Assembly: GCA_945874665.1 (NCBI GenBank)
Contig: CAMCHJ010000012.1
Location: 1 to 59,915, forward strand
Source: Chitinophaga pinensis
GTDB lineage: Bacteria; Bacteroidota; Bacteroidia; UBA7662
Reading direction: 5' to 3'
Length of the DNA stretch: 59,915 nucleotides
The stretch's first letter is position 1; the number at the start of each line of letters is the position of its first letter. Of the stretch, positions 34,474-41,789 are shown in pieces. A program made the position numbers and the translations under genes. The notes below the pieces were generated by a model. The model searched no databases, was not told where the DNA came from, and worked only from the letters and a program-made list of their open reading frames with translations.

Positions 34474-35715
34474 CTAAGAACGCCTATTCGCTAGCAAAGG
34501 CGGCGGTTCCCCGTTAAACGGATTACTCCTGCCGATGGTAGTAGCCATGATACCAGATGCCCGCAATACCGCCCTGTCGCCATAACGATCTCGGATTTTA
34601 TCCATGGCCGAGTATAGACTAATGAGCTCTTCCGTATCGTCAAACAAACTAATTTGATAACCTCCTTGTACCAAATCGCTGTAACGGAGTCCAATCAAAC
34701 GCACCAGCAAGCGCTTGTTGTACAGTTTATCAAACAACTCCAACACTTTAGGAATCAGTAAATGATCGGCTGAGGTATACGGAATATGCTGTTGCAAGGT
34801 ATAGGTGTTGAAATCGGAATAACGCACTTTTACCATGATACAAGAGGTGAGTTTGTGACCTCGACGCAGCTGAAAAGCCAAATTCTCGGCCATGGCTGTT
34901 AAAATGCCCTTGAGCTTTTGCACATCGGTAGTGTCGCGGTCAAAGGTGCGCTCGGTGGAAATAGATTTGCGTTCGTGAAAGGGCTCAACAGGACTGTTGT
35001 CGATGCCATTTGCCTTTTTCCAGAGTTGGTTGCCGTGCTGACCAAAAACACGCTGCAACAAATCAACAGGCATTTCTTGCAGCGTACCTACATAACGAAC
35101 CCCCAATCCCCGTAAAGTCTGGTACATTTTATCCCCTACCATCGGGATTTTTTTCACCGAAAGTGGCGCCAAAAATGGTTTTTCAGTCCCTTTTTGAATG
35201 TGAATTTGGTTGTTGGGCTTGGCCTCACCTGTGGCTACTTTAGAAACGGTTTTATTACCTGACATGCCAAAAGAAATGGGCAAACCCGACTCTCGCATCA
35301 CCTTCTGCCGCAGCTCACTGGCCAGCTTAAAACAGCCAAAAAAGCGATCCATACCTGTTAAATCTACATAAAACTCGTCAATAGACGTCTTTTCAAACAA
35401 CGGCACCTCACGTTCTACAATGTCGGTAACTAACTTGCTGTATTTCGTATAATTGGCTGAATTACCGCGAATTACTACTGCTTCGGGACAAAGATTGCGT
35501 GCCATTTTCATGGCCATGCCCGAATGCACACCAAAAGCGCGCGCTTCATAGCTGCAGGAAGCCACTACCCCCCGGTCGCTGGTGCCTCCAATTAAAATCG
35601 GACGGTGCTGCAAACGACTGTCCAACAGCCGCTCCACCGATACAAAAAAAGTATCTAAATCCATGTGCACAATAGTTCTATCGATCTGTGCATCCACTTC
35701 TGCTCGTTTTTTCAC
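34474..35715 (-). CDS. dinB: Y-family DNA polymerase (DinB-like)
   Basis: A 413-residue translesion polymerase. HMDLDTFFVSVERL supplies the first catalytic Asp pair and the aromatic steric gate. KTSIDEFYVDLTGMDRFFG holds the Asp-Glu pair. SFGMSGNKTVSKVAT and a HhH region (KIPMVGDKMYQTLRGLGVRYVG) follow, then the little-finger domain. A QISLF sequence near residue 362, before a helical tail, fits the beta-clamp-binding consensus. It is the last gene of the S24 regulator-dnaE-dinB run, 72 bases after dnaE. With DnaE and a self-cleaving repressor upstream it most likely acts in SOS mutagenesis. In this role it resembles ImuB, except that its catalytic acids are intact. Confidence 0.92.
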   Translation of the reverse strand: MKKRAEVDAQIDRTIVHMDLDTFFVSVERLLDSRLQHRPILIGGTSDRGVVASCSYEARAFGVHSGMAMKMARNLCPEAVVIRGNSANYTKYSKLVTDIVEREVPLFEKTSIDEFYVDLTGMDRFFGCFKLASELRQKVMRESGLPISFGMSGNKTVSKVATGEAKPNNQIHIQKGTEKPFLAPLSVKKIPMVGDKMYQTLRGLGVRYVGTLQEMPVDLLQRVFGQHGNQLWKKANGIDNSPVEPFHERKSISTERTFDRDTTDVQKLKGILTAMAENLAFQLRRGHKLTSCIMVKVRYSDFNTYTLQQHIPYTSADHLLIPKVLELFDKLYNKRLLVRLIGLRYSDLVQGGYQISLFDDTEELISLYSAMDKIRDRYGDRAVLRASGIMATTIGRSNPFNGEPPPLLANRRS

Positions 35716-35787
35716 TTATTTCCCTCCTTTTTCAAATCTCAACACCAGCCTTGACATCATCTGTCAGTTCCATTTCACTGGCTTGCC

Positions 35788-38763
35788 TTAACCTGCCAGT
35801 CGTCCTGACTGCCGCTCAGCATAACGTGGATCTTCCACAATGGCCAGCTTCTCTAAGCGCGATACTTCTACAATCTGACAGTCAAATTCTTCTGTAACCC
35901 GTCCCCAAAGCGCATAAATACCCCTGCCTCTGAAAGGATAACGCATAGCTACAGGCGGAAAATGTACCGAATCCACGTACTCCCCAGCCTGATCAATAAA
36001 GGTTCCAAACTGCATCCGATCGCCTTTGGCTGTGCGGGTGTCTTTTACTGTGACCAAATACCCCACCACACACACGCTTTTGCCCACAAATTGCTTTAAA
36101 TCGGCAGCAGGAACATTGGGTGGTGGTTTATCGAGGAGCAAGTTAAACGGACTACATAACGGGAAGCCCAGCAATTCAAGCTCATCAAAGGCATCTTCAA
36201 GCGAAACATGATCAAGCGGAGGCAGTACATAGTCCTTGTTATTTACCACAAAAAGCTCAGGTACCGGCTGCTGTGCATTTTTAGGCGCCGCACCCAAATA
36301 TGCTTCCCACAGAAGTTCTTTTTTACTTTTTCCGGTAAATCGAAAAGCGCCCATGCGTATCAAAAGCGACAACTGCTCGACCGAAACGGAAAGTCGTTTG
36401 CAAAAATCGGTTAACGATACAAATGCCCCACCAGTTTCCCTAGCTGCCAATAGCTGTGCTACCAATTGAATTTCTAGTCCTTTAATCATCCCCATTCCTA
36501 ACCACAACACCTCTCCGCGCACTACTACCTCCAAACCACTTTGGTTCACACAAGGTGCCTCTACCAAGGCCCCTTGCATGCGCGCTTCATGCACATAATG
36601 CTCAGCACTGTAAAAGCCTCCCGCATTGTTTAGCGTAGCAGCCATGTACTCAATGGGGTAATATGCCTTTAGAAAAAGGCTTTGGTAACTCTCCACCGCA
36701 TATGAGGCAGAGTGTCCTTTGGCAAAGGCATATCCAGCAAAACTTTCGATTTGTCGCCAAATCTCCTTGCTCATGGCCTCTTCATGCCCCTTCTGCTGGC
36801 AATTATCAAAGAATTTTTGCCGTACCTGCTCAAATTCGTCTCGCCCTCTAAACTTACCACTCATACCCCGGCGAAGTACATCAGCCTCCGCCAACGACAA
36901 ACCCGCAAAATAGTGAGCTACCTTAATCACATCCTCCTGATACACCATTACCCCATAAGTTTCAGGCATAATCTTCAACATTACCGGATGCGCCTCCTTT
37001 CTGCGCTCAGGAAAACGGTAGCGTAAAATATAGGTACGCATCATACCCGAATTTGACACCCCAGGACGAATCACCGAGCTGGCAGCCACCAAACCCAAAT
37101 AATCATCTACACGCAACTTACGCATGAGCATGCGCATGGCCGGCGACTCCACATAAAAACAACCAATCGCGCGTGCCGTTCGCAGCATTTCTTTGATGCG
37201 CTCATCTGTTTTAAAACGGTTGATGTCATGCACGTCAAAAGCCTCAGCATCAGGCTTGTTGTAAGCAATTATGTCGAGTGATTCACGTATTTTACCCAGC
37301 CCTCGCTGACTCAAAATATCGAATTTATACAAGCCCGCATCTTCAGCAACCACCATGTCGAACATCGTGGTAGGAAACCCTTTTGGTGGTAAAAATGTAG
37401 CCGAAAAAGCAGTTATCGGCCTATCGGCAATCAATATCCCGCCGGCATGTATGCTCAAGTGATTAGGAATGTTCTGTAAAAGTGAGGCGTACTGCAAAAG
37501 CAGCTGAGCAGTACGATCAAGGGCGTTTACATCAAATTTTCCCTCGGATAAGCGGTCAATTTCTTCCTTCGGCAAGCCAAACACCTTACCCAACTCCCGC
37601 ACCACGGCTTTAAATTGAAACGTGATGTAGGTCCCTAATAAAGCCACGTAAGGAAACCGACTGAAAATGAACCGAATCACATCATCACGATCAGACCATG
37701 AAAAATCAATGTCAAAATCGGGTGGATTGCGCCTATACAAATTGATGAAGCGCTCGAAGTATAAATCGAGCTCGATAGGATCTACATCGGTAATGCGTAG
37801 CACATAAGCCACCAAACTGTTGGCACCACTGCCCCGTCCTACATAAAAATACCGCTTCGAACGTGCATACTTCAGGATTTTCCAATTGATCAAAAAATAC
37901 GACACATAGCGCTTCTGCCGAATAATTTCCAACTCCTTTTCTAAACGTGACAAAACTTGCTCGCTTGGCTTGGGATAGCGATAGGCAAGCTGACTGTAGC
38001 ACAAATGCTTCATTAAACGGAAATCAAGTTGCTCATTGTCTGTGTAACTCTTCAGGTTTTTATGCGGAAACTGCTCCCCATACTCAAAGCTGATGCGGCA
38101 GCTGTCGAGCAGCACCCGCGTGTTGTAAATGAGCTCTGGGAAATCAGAAAAACAGTCCAAAAGCTTTTCTAAAGGCATCCAGCAGTTTTCGAGCGCCCCA
38201 ATTTCGGTTTCGGGAAGCTTACTCAACAAGCAATTATTGTCGATGGCCCGCAGCAAACGGTGCACATTCCAGTCTTGCTTACTGCTAAAAGTAGTAGGCT
38301 GCAACATCACCGCTTGGTGGAGCGGGTATTTTTTAGGATGCACGCGAATGTGGTTCAAATCACGCAAACCGATGCCTAAACGTTCATACGGCCTTAACTT
38401 GTGGCCATCCCAATTGCTGAGCGGATACACAACCACCGCCTGCTCAAAATCGGGTGCACGTAACGGAAAGTCATTACCAGTATGCAAATACGCAGTCAAA
38501 AAATCGCAAATTTCCTGATAACCAGCATTATTTAACGCCAGCACCACGTATAAAGACTGCACACCCTGCCTAAAATCTACCCCAACCACTGGCCTTACGC
38601 CAAACTTGGGCGCCAAACGTACAAAGTCTAATACAGCCGACGTACTATTTATGTCAGTAAGCGCCAAGCAATCAATACCCGCTGTTTTGGCCTGTTCTAG
38701 TACTTTTATTGGTGATAATAGCCCGTATTTGAGACTAAACCAGCTGTGCACATTGATGTACAT
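35788..38763 (-). CDS. error-prone-type DNA polymerase III alpha subunit (DnaE2-like)
   Basis: A 991-residue C-family polymerase, shorter than a replicative DnaE (about 1160). The N-terminal PHP domain (residues 1-240) has lost metal ligands: INVHS stands where most read HLHVHS, and LTDINS where most read LTDHG. The polymerase acids are intact, in PDFDIDF at 348-354 and in KFDIL (Asp482). IHAGGILI and HhH segments follow. An OB fold lies near residues 885-965 (VVGYLVTVKDTRTAKGDRMQFGTF). The chain ends soon after it, without a tau-binding tail. Placed between a LexA-like S24 protein and dinB, it fits the damage-inducible DnaE2 class rather than the replicase. Confidence 0.9.
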   Translation of the reverse strand: MYINVHSWFSLKYGLLSPIKVLEQAKTAGIDCLALTDINSTSAVLDFVRLAPKFGVRPVVGVDFRQGVQSLYVVLALNNAGYQEICDFLTAYLHTGNDFPLRAPDFEQAVVVYPLSNWDGHKLRPYERLGIGLRDLNHIRVHPKKYPLHQAVMLQPTTFSSKQDWNVHRLLRAIDNNCLLSKLPETEIGALENCWMPLEKLLDCFSDFPELIYNTRVLLDSCRISFEYGEQFPHKNLKSYTDNEQLDFRLMKHLCYSQLAYRYPKPSEQVLSRLEKELEIIRQKRYVSYFLINWKILKYARSKRYFYVGRGSGANSLVAYVLRITDVDPIELDLYFERFINLYRRNPPDFDIDFSWSDRDDVIRFIFSRFPYVALLGTYITFQFKAVVRELGKVFGLPKEEIDRLSEGKFDVNALDRTAQLLLQYASLLQNIPNHLSIHAGGILIADRPITAFSATFLPPKGFPTTMFDMVVAEDAGLYKFDILSQRGLGKIRESLDIIAYNKPDAEAFDVHDINRFKTDERIKEMLRTARAIGCFYVESPAMRMLMRKLRVDDYLGLVAASSVIRPGVSNSGMMRTYILRYRFPERRKEAHPVMLKIMPETYGVMVYQEDVIKVAHYFAGLSLAEADVLRRGMSGKFRGRDEFEQVRQKFFDNCQQKGHEEAMSKEIWRQIESFAGYAFAKGHSASYAVESYQSLFLKAYYPIEYMAATLNNAGGFYSAEHYVHEARMQGALVEAPCVNQSGLEVVVRGEVLWLGMGMIKGLEIQLVAQLLAARETGGAFVSLTDFCKRLSVSVEQLSLLIRMGAFRFTGKSKKELLWEAYLGAAPKNAQQPVPELFVVNNKDYVLPPLDHVSLEDAFDELELLGFPLCSPFNLLLDKPPPNVPAADLKQFVGKSVCVVGYLVTVKDTRTAKGDRMQFGTFIDQAGEYVDSVHFPPVAMRYPFRGRGIYALWGRVTEEFDCQIVEVSRLEKLAIVEDPRYAERQSGRLAG

Positions 38764-38785
38764 TCCCCCCTCCTTTTTGCATCTA

Positions 38786-39574
38786 CTACTTATTTGTACC
38801 CTGGACTTGCCCTACCAATGTTCGCAATTCACCCAACAATTGCTGCCACTCTGATACTGCTCCAGCATCGCCAGGTGTAGGTAGTTTGAAACTCAAATAG
38901 CCTAATCCTTTCCATACTTCTAATACCTCATCTGCTTGCAGGCGATAAGGTGCGTAAGCGGGATTGTCGGAACGAAGCTCTAAATAACCTTGCTCTAAGT
39001 GATTTATGACGCGCTTATAAACAACCCCTTCACCTTTGGAAACCAGAATGCAGGACTGATAATCACGCAATGACCGCCAATCTTGCACATACTCGGCAAT
39101 GATGTACGAACCATCAGGAACGGGAACCATGCTATCCCCCTTAATTTGAAATAATCGGTACGATCGCTCAGCCCGCAACTCGGTTACAGGTAGACTAAAA
39201 GCCGGTAATTTGGCTACAAAGTCAGTATCTCTGTGGCCATCCAAATAACCTGCAGCTGCTTGCACCGGCACCACACTAATTTGCTCCTCACCAGCTGCTT
39301 GCACCGCCACAGGCAAAATACGCAGGCGTTTGCCAGCCACATCAACGCTAGAACGTTGCCCTGCTGTCTTCAAAATATCTTGCTGCAGCAACGCATCGAT
39401 GCTGCAGCCAAATAAATCGGCTAGCGATAAAAGAACCGTTAAACGCGGCTCTGCTCGCCCTTCCTCGTAAGCTCCCAAGGCCGACCGCGTTACACCAATG
39501 CGCACCGCAAGCTCCTCTTGGGTAAGCCCCAAGACTTTTCTCTTGCCTTTGATATTTGCCTTTAACTGTTCCAT
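38786..39574 (-). CDS. XRE-type repressor with S24 (LexA/UmuD-like) self-cleavage domain
   Basis: A 262-residue regulator. Residues 6-62 are an XRE helix-turn-helix (LTQEELAVRIGVTRSALGAYEEGR). A linker with the candidate cleavage site AAA-G at Ala108-Gly109 leads into a peptidase S24 domain with the Ser148 nucleophile (KGDSMVPVPDGS) and Lys187 (VVYKRV). This is the architecture of lambda CI and of LexA-like repressors that cleave themselves when RecA is activated. It starts the operon containing dnaE (22 bases downstream) and dinB, so the likely role is damage-relieved control of that operon. A dyad-rich region directly upstream of its ATG is the candidate operator. Confidence 0.93.
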   Translation of the reverse strand: MEQLKANIKGKRKVLGLTQEELAVRIGVTRSALGAYEEGRAEPRLTVLLSLADLFGCSIDALLQQDILKTAGQRSSVDVAGKRLRILPVAVQAAGEEQISVVPVQAAAGYLDGHRDTDFVAKLPAFSLPVTELRAERSYRLFQIKGDSMVPVPDGSYIIAEYVQDWRSLRDYQSCILVSKGEGVVYKRVINHLEQGYLELRSDNPAYAPYRLQADEVLEVWKGLGYLSFKLPTPGDAGAVSEWQQLLGELRTLVGQVQGTNK

Positions 39575-39578
39575 TTAT

Positions 39579-39617
39579 TTAGAATGCTAATTTAATTGGT
39601 TTTCTAATTTTATTAGC
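39579..39617. promoter_or_regulatory. candidate operator of the S24 repressor
   Basis: Two overlapping dyads lie just before the repressor ATG. TTAG-AATG-CTAA is at 39579-39590. A larger inverted repeat opens with GCTAAT at 39586 and closes with ATTAGC at 39617, with a nearly matching 14-base arm on each side. The half-sites CTAATTTAATT and CTAATTTTATT also form a direct repeat. This is typical of autoregulated XRE/S24 repressors and could also control the divergent pseudogene. Confidence 0.5.
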
Positions 39618-39666
39618 AAAAAAGGACTCATAGTTTTCCACAACCTTGCTTTCTTTTATTTTAGAT

Positions 39667-40331
39667 ATGTTTTTGTCTTTGTTTCTAATTTCAAATCATA
39701 CTACTAAATCTAAACCACTAAACATCAAGACAGTCATTATAGGCGGTAATTTTGTAGGATTCATCGCGGCCCTAGAGCTTAAGCGAAAGGCAGGTCTAGA
39801 TGTAAACATCACCGGATCGACCGCTCACCTTATTTCCTATTCATCCCTTCCCTCATCTGGGTGCCCTTCAGAAGAAGAAACATTAAAGACATCCAAATCA
39901 GAAGGGATAATATATTTAAAAGAAAAGGGATTCGCTTTCTAGAAGCCGAAGCCCTCAAAGTGGACACAATTAACCAAACCGTCATTACTTCTGAAGGCGA
40001 TGTAAGCTACGACCACCTCGTGATTGCTTCTGGTCCGAAAGTCAATTTCGACATTGCACCTGGCGTAAAAGACCACTCCTATTATATAGGTACCCCACTG
40101 CACGCCAAAAGACTCGCACAAAACTTGACGACTTTTTACAAAACCCCGGTCCAGCAGTCATCGCCGCCTCACAAGACGCAGGCTGTATAGGTGCAGCTTA
40201 CGAGTTTTATTCAACCGCGAAAAAGGAGTACGCCAAAAAGTAGACCTTTATTGGGTAACCCCAGAACCCTGCCTCGGTCACTTCGGAATCGATGGCATGC
40301 CGGGTGGCAAAACGAGGTCGGGCTTTTATTA
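39667..40331 (+). pseudogene. degraded SQR-type FAD/NAD(P)-dependent oxidoreductase
   Basis: About 200 codons of a sulfide:quinone reductase-like flavoprotein can be rebuilt across three frames. Frame 1 reads IKTVIIGGNFVGFIAALELKR. A missing base near 39814 shifts to a frame reading DRSPYFLFIPSLIWVPFRRR and later EGDVSYDHLVIASGPK. A base lost in an A run near 40121 leads to DDFLQNPGPAVIAAS and GCIGAAYEF. A base lost in a T run near 40210 leads to REKGVRQKVDLYWVTPEPC and LGHFGIDGMPGGK. The message then stops at 40331 where a whole enzyme would continue for about 180 residues. The Rossmann glycine motif is also altered (GGNFVG for GGGFGG). Three one-base deletions plus 3' loss make this a pseudogene, unless the deletions are assembly errors. 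Confidence 0.85.
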
Positions 40332-40739: not shown

Positions 40740-40913
40740 ATGGAACAGTTCAAAGTATTACACGACATGCTTATGTCATTGGAAAAAGATTTCCAAAAAT
40801 TCTATGATGCAGGTAACAACGCAGCGGGTACACGCGTACGTAAAGGCCTCCAGGATCTCAAGACCCAGTGTCAAGAAATTCGTCTCGACGTTCAAAACCG
40901 TAAGAACGCTTAG
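40740..40913 (+). CDS. Hc1-like histone H1 family protein
   Basis: A 57-residue protein that short-ORF filters would miss. The start is MEQFKVLHDMLMSLEKDFQKFYD, followed by AGNNAAGTRVRKGLQDLKT and a lysine/arginine-ended tail, QNRKNA. The KFYD-GN-AAGTRVRKG-Q-LK pattern is the hallmark of the small histone H1/Hc1-like proteins of Bacteroidota. These bind DNA and may compact or protect the nucleoid. Full chlamydial Hc1 has a long basic C-terminal tail that is absent here. It lies between tRNA-Arg and the SRAP gene, with its own weak promoter and a strong terminator. Confidence 0.88.
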   Translation: MEQFKVLHDMLMSLEKDFQKFYDAGNNAAGTRVRKGLQDLKTQCQEIRLDVQNRKNA

Positions 40914-40927
40914 AACTAATGCATGAG

Positions 40928-40963
40928 CCCCGTCTTGAAAAACCAAGACGGGGTTTATTTTTA
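40928..40963 (+). terminator. intrinsic terminator
   Basis: CCCCGTCTTG, an AAAAAC loop and CAAGACGGGG, then TTTATTTTTA. It ends the Hc1-like gene only four bases before the SRAP start codon, so the SRAP gene either has a promoter inside this region or depends on incomplete termination. Confidence 0.88.
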
Positions 40964-40967
40964 TAAC

Positions 40968-41789
40968 ATGTGTGGTCGCTATACACTTGTTTCTAAAATT
41001 GAAGTTATCGAGAAGCGCTTTCAAGCTAAAGCCAACTTTTCGCAATACTCCAATCCAAATATCAGCGCAGCCGACCTAGCTCCAGTTATCACTAGCGGCA
41101 ATCCACAAACCATTTGCCTTATGCATTTCGGCATGCAGCCTCCTTGGGCCACGAAAAGCATGCTTCTTTTAAACGCCCGATCTGAGGGCGACCATAATCC
41201 CGAAAACAGCACGCTTTACCATGGTGCCTTAGGGATTATTCAAAAACCTGCCTTTCGCAAACCTATCCGGCAACAACGTTGCTTGGTATTGGCTGATGCC
41301 TTTATTGAAGGCCCCGAAGCGCAACGGCTTCAACAACCGTATTTGGTGTACCCAAACGAACGGGAGTCGCCCTTTGCCTTTGCCGGCATTTGGGAGTGTT
41401 GGCAGGACCTAAAAAGCGGCGAAATTAGAAATGGCTTCGCTATTATTACCGGCCCAGCCATGCCTGTTGTAGCCAGCTTTAAACACCACCGCTCCCCAAT
41501 TGTGCTACCCCAAGGTGAGGAACACACCTGGCTTGACCCTGATTTACCACTGGCAGAAGTCACCGCTTTGCTCAAAGCTCCGGCAGAGCTCCACTGGAAT
41601 ACATACCCAATCAGCACTGCCATTAAACAAGCAGCGAATAAATCGCTCGATTTATTGCAGCCCGTAGGACCACCCTTGCTGCCTGAGCTGAGCTTTGTTT
41701 TTTCGCAAAAACTTCAACTCAGTGGCATGGGGGCCAGTCCTGCGAGAACCAGGCGTGCTGCCGACAATGATCAATTAAGTCTATTCTAA
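40968..41789 (+). CDS. SRAP (HMCES/YedK-type) abasic-site sensor with C-terminal clamp motif
   Basis: A 273-residue protein that forms a thiazolidine crosslink to abasic sites in single-stranded DNA. The start is fixed at ATG 40968 because the N-terminal Cys2 (MCGRY) must become residue 1 after Met removal. An in-frame ATG 45 bases upstream would bury it. Further active-site residues are Asn69 (LLNARSEG), Glu143 (FAGIWE) and the His173/174 pair (KHHRSPIV). It is longer than YedK (222), and the extra C-terminus ends exactly in DQLSLF followed by the stop. QLSLF is a consensus beta-clamp-binding motif. It lies beside the SOS mutagenesis operon and the Hc1-like gene, which fits a role in DNA damage tolerance. 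Confidence 0.93.
   Translation: MCGRYTLVSKIEVIEKRFQAKANFSQYSNPNISAADLAPVITSGNPQTICLMHFGMQPPWATKSMLLLNARSEGDHNPENSTLYHGALGIIQKPAFRKPIRQQRCLVLADAFIEGPEAQRLQQPYLVYPNERESPFAFAGIWECWQDLKSGEIRNGFAIITGPAMPVVASFKHHRSPIVLPQGEEHTWLDPDLPLAEVTALLKAPAELHWNTYPISTAIKQAANKSLDLLQPVGPPLLPELSFVFSQKLQLSGMGASPARTRRAADNDQLSLF

Follow-up and report, generated by a model that had tools for sequence, protein, structure and literature searches.

Known counterparts of the protein analysed here include human HMCES and Escherichia coli YedK (SRAP, DUF159). In addition to its SRAP domain, human HMCES has a C-terminal extension whose PIP-type motif presumably contacts the sliding clamp PCNA. YedK has 222 aa and carries neither a tail nor a clamp motif. 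Bacterial beta-clamp motifs follow the consensus Q-aliphatic-x-[L/M]-[F/L]; QLxLF is the class with the highest affinity, and several known motifs of this class are C-terminal (2024 review, PMC11139829). Pol II, Pol IV, Pol III alpha and Hda have such short linear motifs in disordered or terminal segments (PMC11139829). SRAP genes adjoining LexA, DinB, ImuB, DnaE2 or UmuC genes in SOS operons were reported in 2013, without mention of a clamp motif (PMC3765255). A Bacteroidetes DnaE2B–PolY–RecA association module was proposed in 2026 (PMC12926913).

The window, that is, the whole 59,915-nucleotide stretch of Chitinophaga pinensis DNA that was analysed, encodes an SRAP protein that shares with YedK the SRAP fold, the catalytic Cys2, Asn, Arg, Glu and His residues and, presumably, AP-site crosslinking, but extends about 50 residues further and ends in QLSLF. 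With HMCES it shares the SRAP domain; however, whereas the HMCES motif is of the PIP type and directed to PCNA, the motif found here belongs to the bacterial beta-clamp type and seems to have arisen independently, which suggests convergent evolution with the HMCES–PCNA pair. The motif resembles those of the polymerases and Hda in being a QLxLF-type element in a probably disordered, terminal segment. In contrast to known clamp-binding repair proteins and polymerases, the effector domain in this case is a presumed AP-site crosslinker. From these comparisons, we propose that the tail most likely tethers an SRAP abasic-site shield to beta-clamps at forks and gaps. How a bacterial SRAP finds AP sites at forks is apparently not addressed in the literature that we found, and a conserved clamp motif would be a direct answer. 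Two sliding-clamp reviews do not mention an SRAP protein, and our search of open-access papers returned no report linking SRAP with the sliding clamp, DnaN or QLxLF, in agreement with a preliminary description of this locus, which knew of no account of the arrangement but allowed that it may exist in related species.

The SRAP protein and its tail

The gene and its C-terminal features are as follows.

40968..41789, plus strand: SRAP (YedK/HMCES-type abasic-site crosslinking) protein of 273 aa with a C-terminal tail (Pfam SRAP, active-site residues, Foldseek)
41685..41789, plus strand: C-terminal tail, about residues 240-273, comprising a conserved GMG..ARxRR stretch, a variable linker and the clamp motif (low pLDDT, alignments)
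41772..41786, plus strand: QLSLF, beta-clamp-binding-type motif, residues 269-273, adjoining the stop codon (sequence, subfamily conservation, QLxLF consensus)

The translation of 40968-41789 starts with MCGRYT and ends with RAADNDQLSLF, directly followed by TAA. The program-made open reading frame opens at 40923; we placed the start at 40968 because the catalytic cysteine must be residue 2. The Pfam SRAP profile (PF02586) matched residues 1-221 over profile positions 1-213 of 214 with 131.9 bits (cut-off 27.1), leaving a tail of about 50 residues beyond the domain. The HMCES/YedK-type assignment of the preliminary description, its length and DQLSLF-stop ending, and the extra tail relative to the 222 residues of the YedK model were thereby confirmed. 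The gene is present in a single copy in the 2.29-Mb genome. Across 46 relatives, residues C2, N69, R71, E114 and H173/H174 show no or almost no variation, and the YedK active-site residues align with C2, N69, R71, E114 and the histidine of the HHR sequence.

An AlphaFold2 model, built with the 46 window and locus sequences as alignment input, predicted the SRAP fold with a mean pLDDT of 86.5 and values of approximately 85-97 for most of the domain. Foldseek matched it to SRAP structures, namely BT_1218 (2f20; E 9e-17), HMCES (7e-16) and YedK (2e-14). From residue 241 on, pLDDT fell to 42-55 over the last four blocks and to below 50 for the last five residues, and the motif thus lies in an accessible, low-confidence terminus. 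According to the model, the protein consists of an SRAP domain followed by a tail that is probably disordered and has QLSLF as its last residues. The stretch GMG..[ST].AR.RR (window 41715-41760 and orthologues) is conserved in most tails; it precedes the variable linker and is separate from the clamp motif.

QLSLF satisfies the beta-clamp consensus cited above, as the preliminary description had stated. Several relatives deviate at position 2, which is often Gly, Ser or Arg and then lies outside the strict aliphatic consensus. The same genome offers two motifs for comparison. Its replicative polymerase DnaE has QTSLF at its clamp site, at residue 1193 and shortly after HHH_6. The PolY encoded in the window has an internal QISLF, and QxxLF is near-invariant at that position in 58 orthologues. 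The SRAP motif differs from both in the second residue alone. DnaN is a single-copy protein in this genome; it aligned over its whole length with solved clamps, and the pocket segments ATD-x-H-x-L, KYPDY and the C-terminal MP, read by eye, are retained. This comparative evidence supports the interpretation of QLSLF as a clamp motif.

Conservation of the terminal motif

Conservation was analysed in a subfamily set of 85 distinct proteins. The 80 genome loci used were, of 297, the 80 whose SRAP scored highest in similarity to that of the window. A Q..[LIM]F sequence was present within the last 10 residues of 57 of the 85 members (best 80 of 297 loci plus others, a ranking that mildly favours tailed SRAPs), and a further 4 of 85 had QxxLxF. 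Background frequencies were much lower: 5 of 520 other open reading frames (250 aa or longer) in these loci and 7 of 684 in a wider set had such ends, and at least five of these background matches were radical SAM proteins of the PA0069 type. Composition-shuffled tails gave a mean of 0.31 matches and a maximum of 4 (2000 draws). The Fisher p value for 57/85 versus 7/684 was about 1e-56, a figure inflated by the relatedness of the sequences. The closest homologues retain the motif: same-genus relatives with 80% and 58% identity end with EQLSLF and QQLKLF, respectively.

Identity at the fixed motif positions is set by the search pattern and is not evidence; codon changes and linker variation are. 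The motif-bearing tails contain 20 different pentapeptides, the commonest being QGSLF. Between GMG and the motif lie 8 to 39 residues (15 distinct values), and the 12 positions preceding the motif have a pairwise identity of only 0.09-0.24. Motif codons are mixed (Q, CAA 43/CAG 14; L, six codons; F, TTC 32/TTT 25). In a tree built from the SRAP domain with the tail excluded, every deep branch contains the motif, and motif presence requires 8 changes. Taken together, these results show the pattern of a selected short linear motif. The expectation that a terminal QLxLF would be kept in long-tailed Bacteroidota SRAPs, and would not be missing from close homologues, is therefore borne out.

The motif is kept in ~70% of the subfamily, and about a quarter of the members lack it. 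A clade of tail-less 259-aa proteins looks like one loss on the SRAP-domain tree. This clade retains the full operon, and the tail is thus not essential to SRAP function there; recruitment in tail-less members with complete operons must proceed by another route or be dispensable. Compensation by DnaE2 for the loss of the SRAP tail was ruled out, since the DnaE2 alignment has no consistent clamp motif and no correlation was seen. One locus (L007) has a tandem pair of SRAP genes, the first of which stops early and has no clamp motif.

The preliminary description had asked about the motif in Bacteroidota members with long tails. It is indeed kept in the long-tailed subfamily, but shorter SRAPs of the phylum carry it too at lower frequency, which rules out a restriction to long-tailed members: among 86 other Bacteroidota SRAPs, 10 end with QxxLF and 33 with [LIM]F followed by at most 2 further residues (background 7/684 and 16/684 open reading frames, respectively). 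The motif is not a general SRAP feature across bacteria either, as 13 of 14 SRAPs of other phyla and a phage lack it. Judged by these counts, the terminal clamp-type motif is mainly a Bacteroidota trait. A Leptospira plasmid SRAP (L231), whose gene overlaps a Y-family polymerase gene, ends with QELLF and is a possible independent case outside Bacteroidota. Viral contigs scanned with a short SRAP yielded one weak match.

The LexA-like/PolY/DnaE2 neighbourhood

The neighbouring features in the window are as follows.

34474..35715, minus strand: Y-family DNA polymerase (PolY), with the internal QISLF ~60 residues from the C-terminus (Pfam IMS/IMS_C)
35788..38763, minus strand: DnaE2-type error-prone polymerase, 991 aa (Pfam PHP, DNA_pol3_alpha, finger, HHH_6)
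38786..39574, minus strand: LexA-like XRE/S24 regulator, which opens the PolY/DnaE2 cluster (Pfam HTH_3, Peptidase_S24)
40923..40958, plus strand: hairpin resembling an intrinsic terminator, shortly before the SRAP start codon (15-bp stem, T-run)

At 65 of 83 subfamily loci, at least one of the LexA-like, PolY and DnaE2 genes lies near the SRAP gene, and all three do so in 41; DnaE2 is present in 64 loci of the set. The usual gene order is LexA–PolY–SRAP–DnaE2, with intergenic gaps mostly below 110 bp between PolY and SRAP and mostly below 50 bp between SRAP and DnaE2. Because most subfamily loci encode these four proteins together, SRAP seems to belong to the DnaE2B/PolY damage-tolerance cassette of Bacteroidota. 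The module proposed in 2026 likewise has DnaE2 and an active PolY encoded together in Bacteroidota; however, the available excerpt of that paper lists neither an SRAP nor a LexA-like gene, (PMC12926913), whereas most of the loci analysed here have SRAP placed between PolY and DnaE2. With a clamp motif, SRAP would join a translesion-synthesis cassette in which the polymerases rely on the same site of the clamp.

The window itself has a divided arrangement. The LexA–DnaE2–PolY genes occupy the minus strand (34474-39574); SRAP follows about 1.4 kb away on the plus strand and does not belong to the same operon. A CTAAT-N3-ATTAG palindrome lies upstream of the LexA-like gene of the window (region 39575-39720). 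The regions upstream of LexA-like genes at 51 loci contained this palindrome in 13 cases and TGCTA-N7-TAGCA in 11; these are candidate operators of the LexA-like regulator. No such palindrome or shared operator was seen upstream of the window SRAP gene. Window positions 40741-40967 hold a 57-aa product, histone-like by eye and without a Pfam match, which ends just before the terminator-like hairpin. The SRAP start codon follows shortly after the T-run of this hairpin, and a similar layout was seen at two other loci (L032 and L033).

Proposed clamp tethering and its alternatives

The mechanism that we propose as the most likely builds on the presumed shielding activity of the SRAP domain, in which Cys2 would crosslink AP sites in single-stranded DNA. 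Through its flexible tail the protein would insert QLSLF into the hydrophobic DnaN pocket, like the motifs of DnaE and PolY in this cell. Docking would concentrate the shield at replication forks, at post-replicative gaps and on clamps left on DNA. The clamp-held SRAP could then cap template AP sites while competing or cooperating with the neighbouring PolY and DnaE2 translesion polymerases for the clamp, and its use of the clamp might be in competition or in rotation with DnaE, PolY and DnaE2. We infer clamp binding, recruitment and an effect on the fate of AP sites from the conserved motif and its setting. Points that speak against this mechanism are the subfamily members devoid of the motif, the frequent Gly, Ser or Arg at its second position and, in the window, the location of SRAP outside the operon with no LexA-like palindrome ahead of it.

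Three other explanations fit the data less well than a clamp tether; notably, roughly half of the members have residues trailing the motif, and unrelated proteins share it. One is that the tail serves as a tag at the C-terminus for degradation or regulation, read for instance by ClpXP, and gives rapid turnover of SRAP or its crosslinks. Proteolysis is frequent among DNA-damage proteins, and in 30 of 58 cases the motif forms the very end of the protein. However, in 27 of the remaining 28 it is followed by 1-5 residues (D, SN, GS, DNEVI, DDEK), which a degron that requires a free end would not tolerate; moreover, the juxta-domain QRRLF forms of some members are internal, and Q, L and F match the clamp-motif positions of DnaE and PolY in the same genome. 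We therefore consider a tag improbable.

We give an equally small chance to the idea that the motif merely resembles a clamp motif and binds another partner in the cassette, such as PolY, DnaE2 or RecA. The conserved operon with PolY and DnaE2 would accommodate such a partner, and the GMG..ARxRR stretch could provide a second contact. Against this, the motif fits the known positions of the clamp consensus and its type recurs in other SRAPs of the phylum as well as in the unrelated PA0069 radical SAM proteins, and the clamp would be what all of these have in common. A chance or composition effect in a hydrophilic tail, producing a terminal QLSLF that binds nothing, would suit the fast evolution of the linker and the quarter of the subfamily devoid of the motif, but it is very improbable and as an origin of the motif was ruled out by the background open reading frames (57/85 versus about 1%) and the shuffled tails (mean 0.3), by the exchange of synonymous codons for Q, L and F while the residues stay, and by persistence of the motif across linkers of 8 to 39 residues.

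Clamp tethering also allows a broader model, which we put forward tentatively as somewhat likelier to fail than to hold. The AP-site shield of Bacteroidota might be a clamp-tethered member of a LexA/PolY/SRAP/DnaE2 mutasome, in which SRAP, PolY and the replicase, with their near-identical motifs, compete for one DnaN pocket. Clamp occupancy would then decide between capping by SRAP and error-prone bypass, and the system would be an independently evolved bacterial counterpart of HMCES–PCNA control.

The motif may also serve as a sequence signature for further unrecognised clamp clients, as the radical SAM proteins illustrate. Five non-SRAP proteins with the motif, encoded beside DnaE2, belong to the PA0069 family (NF033668), and all five have a clamp-type end; in some loci the gene lies downstream of DnaE2. 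PA0069-family genes were found at loci L045:13001-14062, L060, L065, L092, L100 and L186-L217, and none was found in the window genome. These observations suggest that the PA0069 family is a second unrecognised clamp client, which some genomes link with the repair cassette described above; this uncharacterised family is possibly a clamp-recruited DNA-repair enzyme. In a wider Bacteroidota sample, 15 of 17 family members end with QxxLF, and elsewhere the ends are QLRLF in Aeromonas and QLTMF in Azospirillum.
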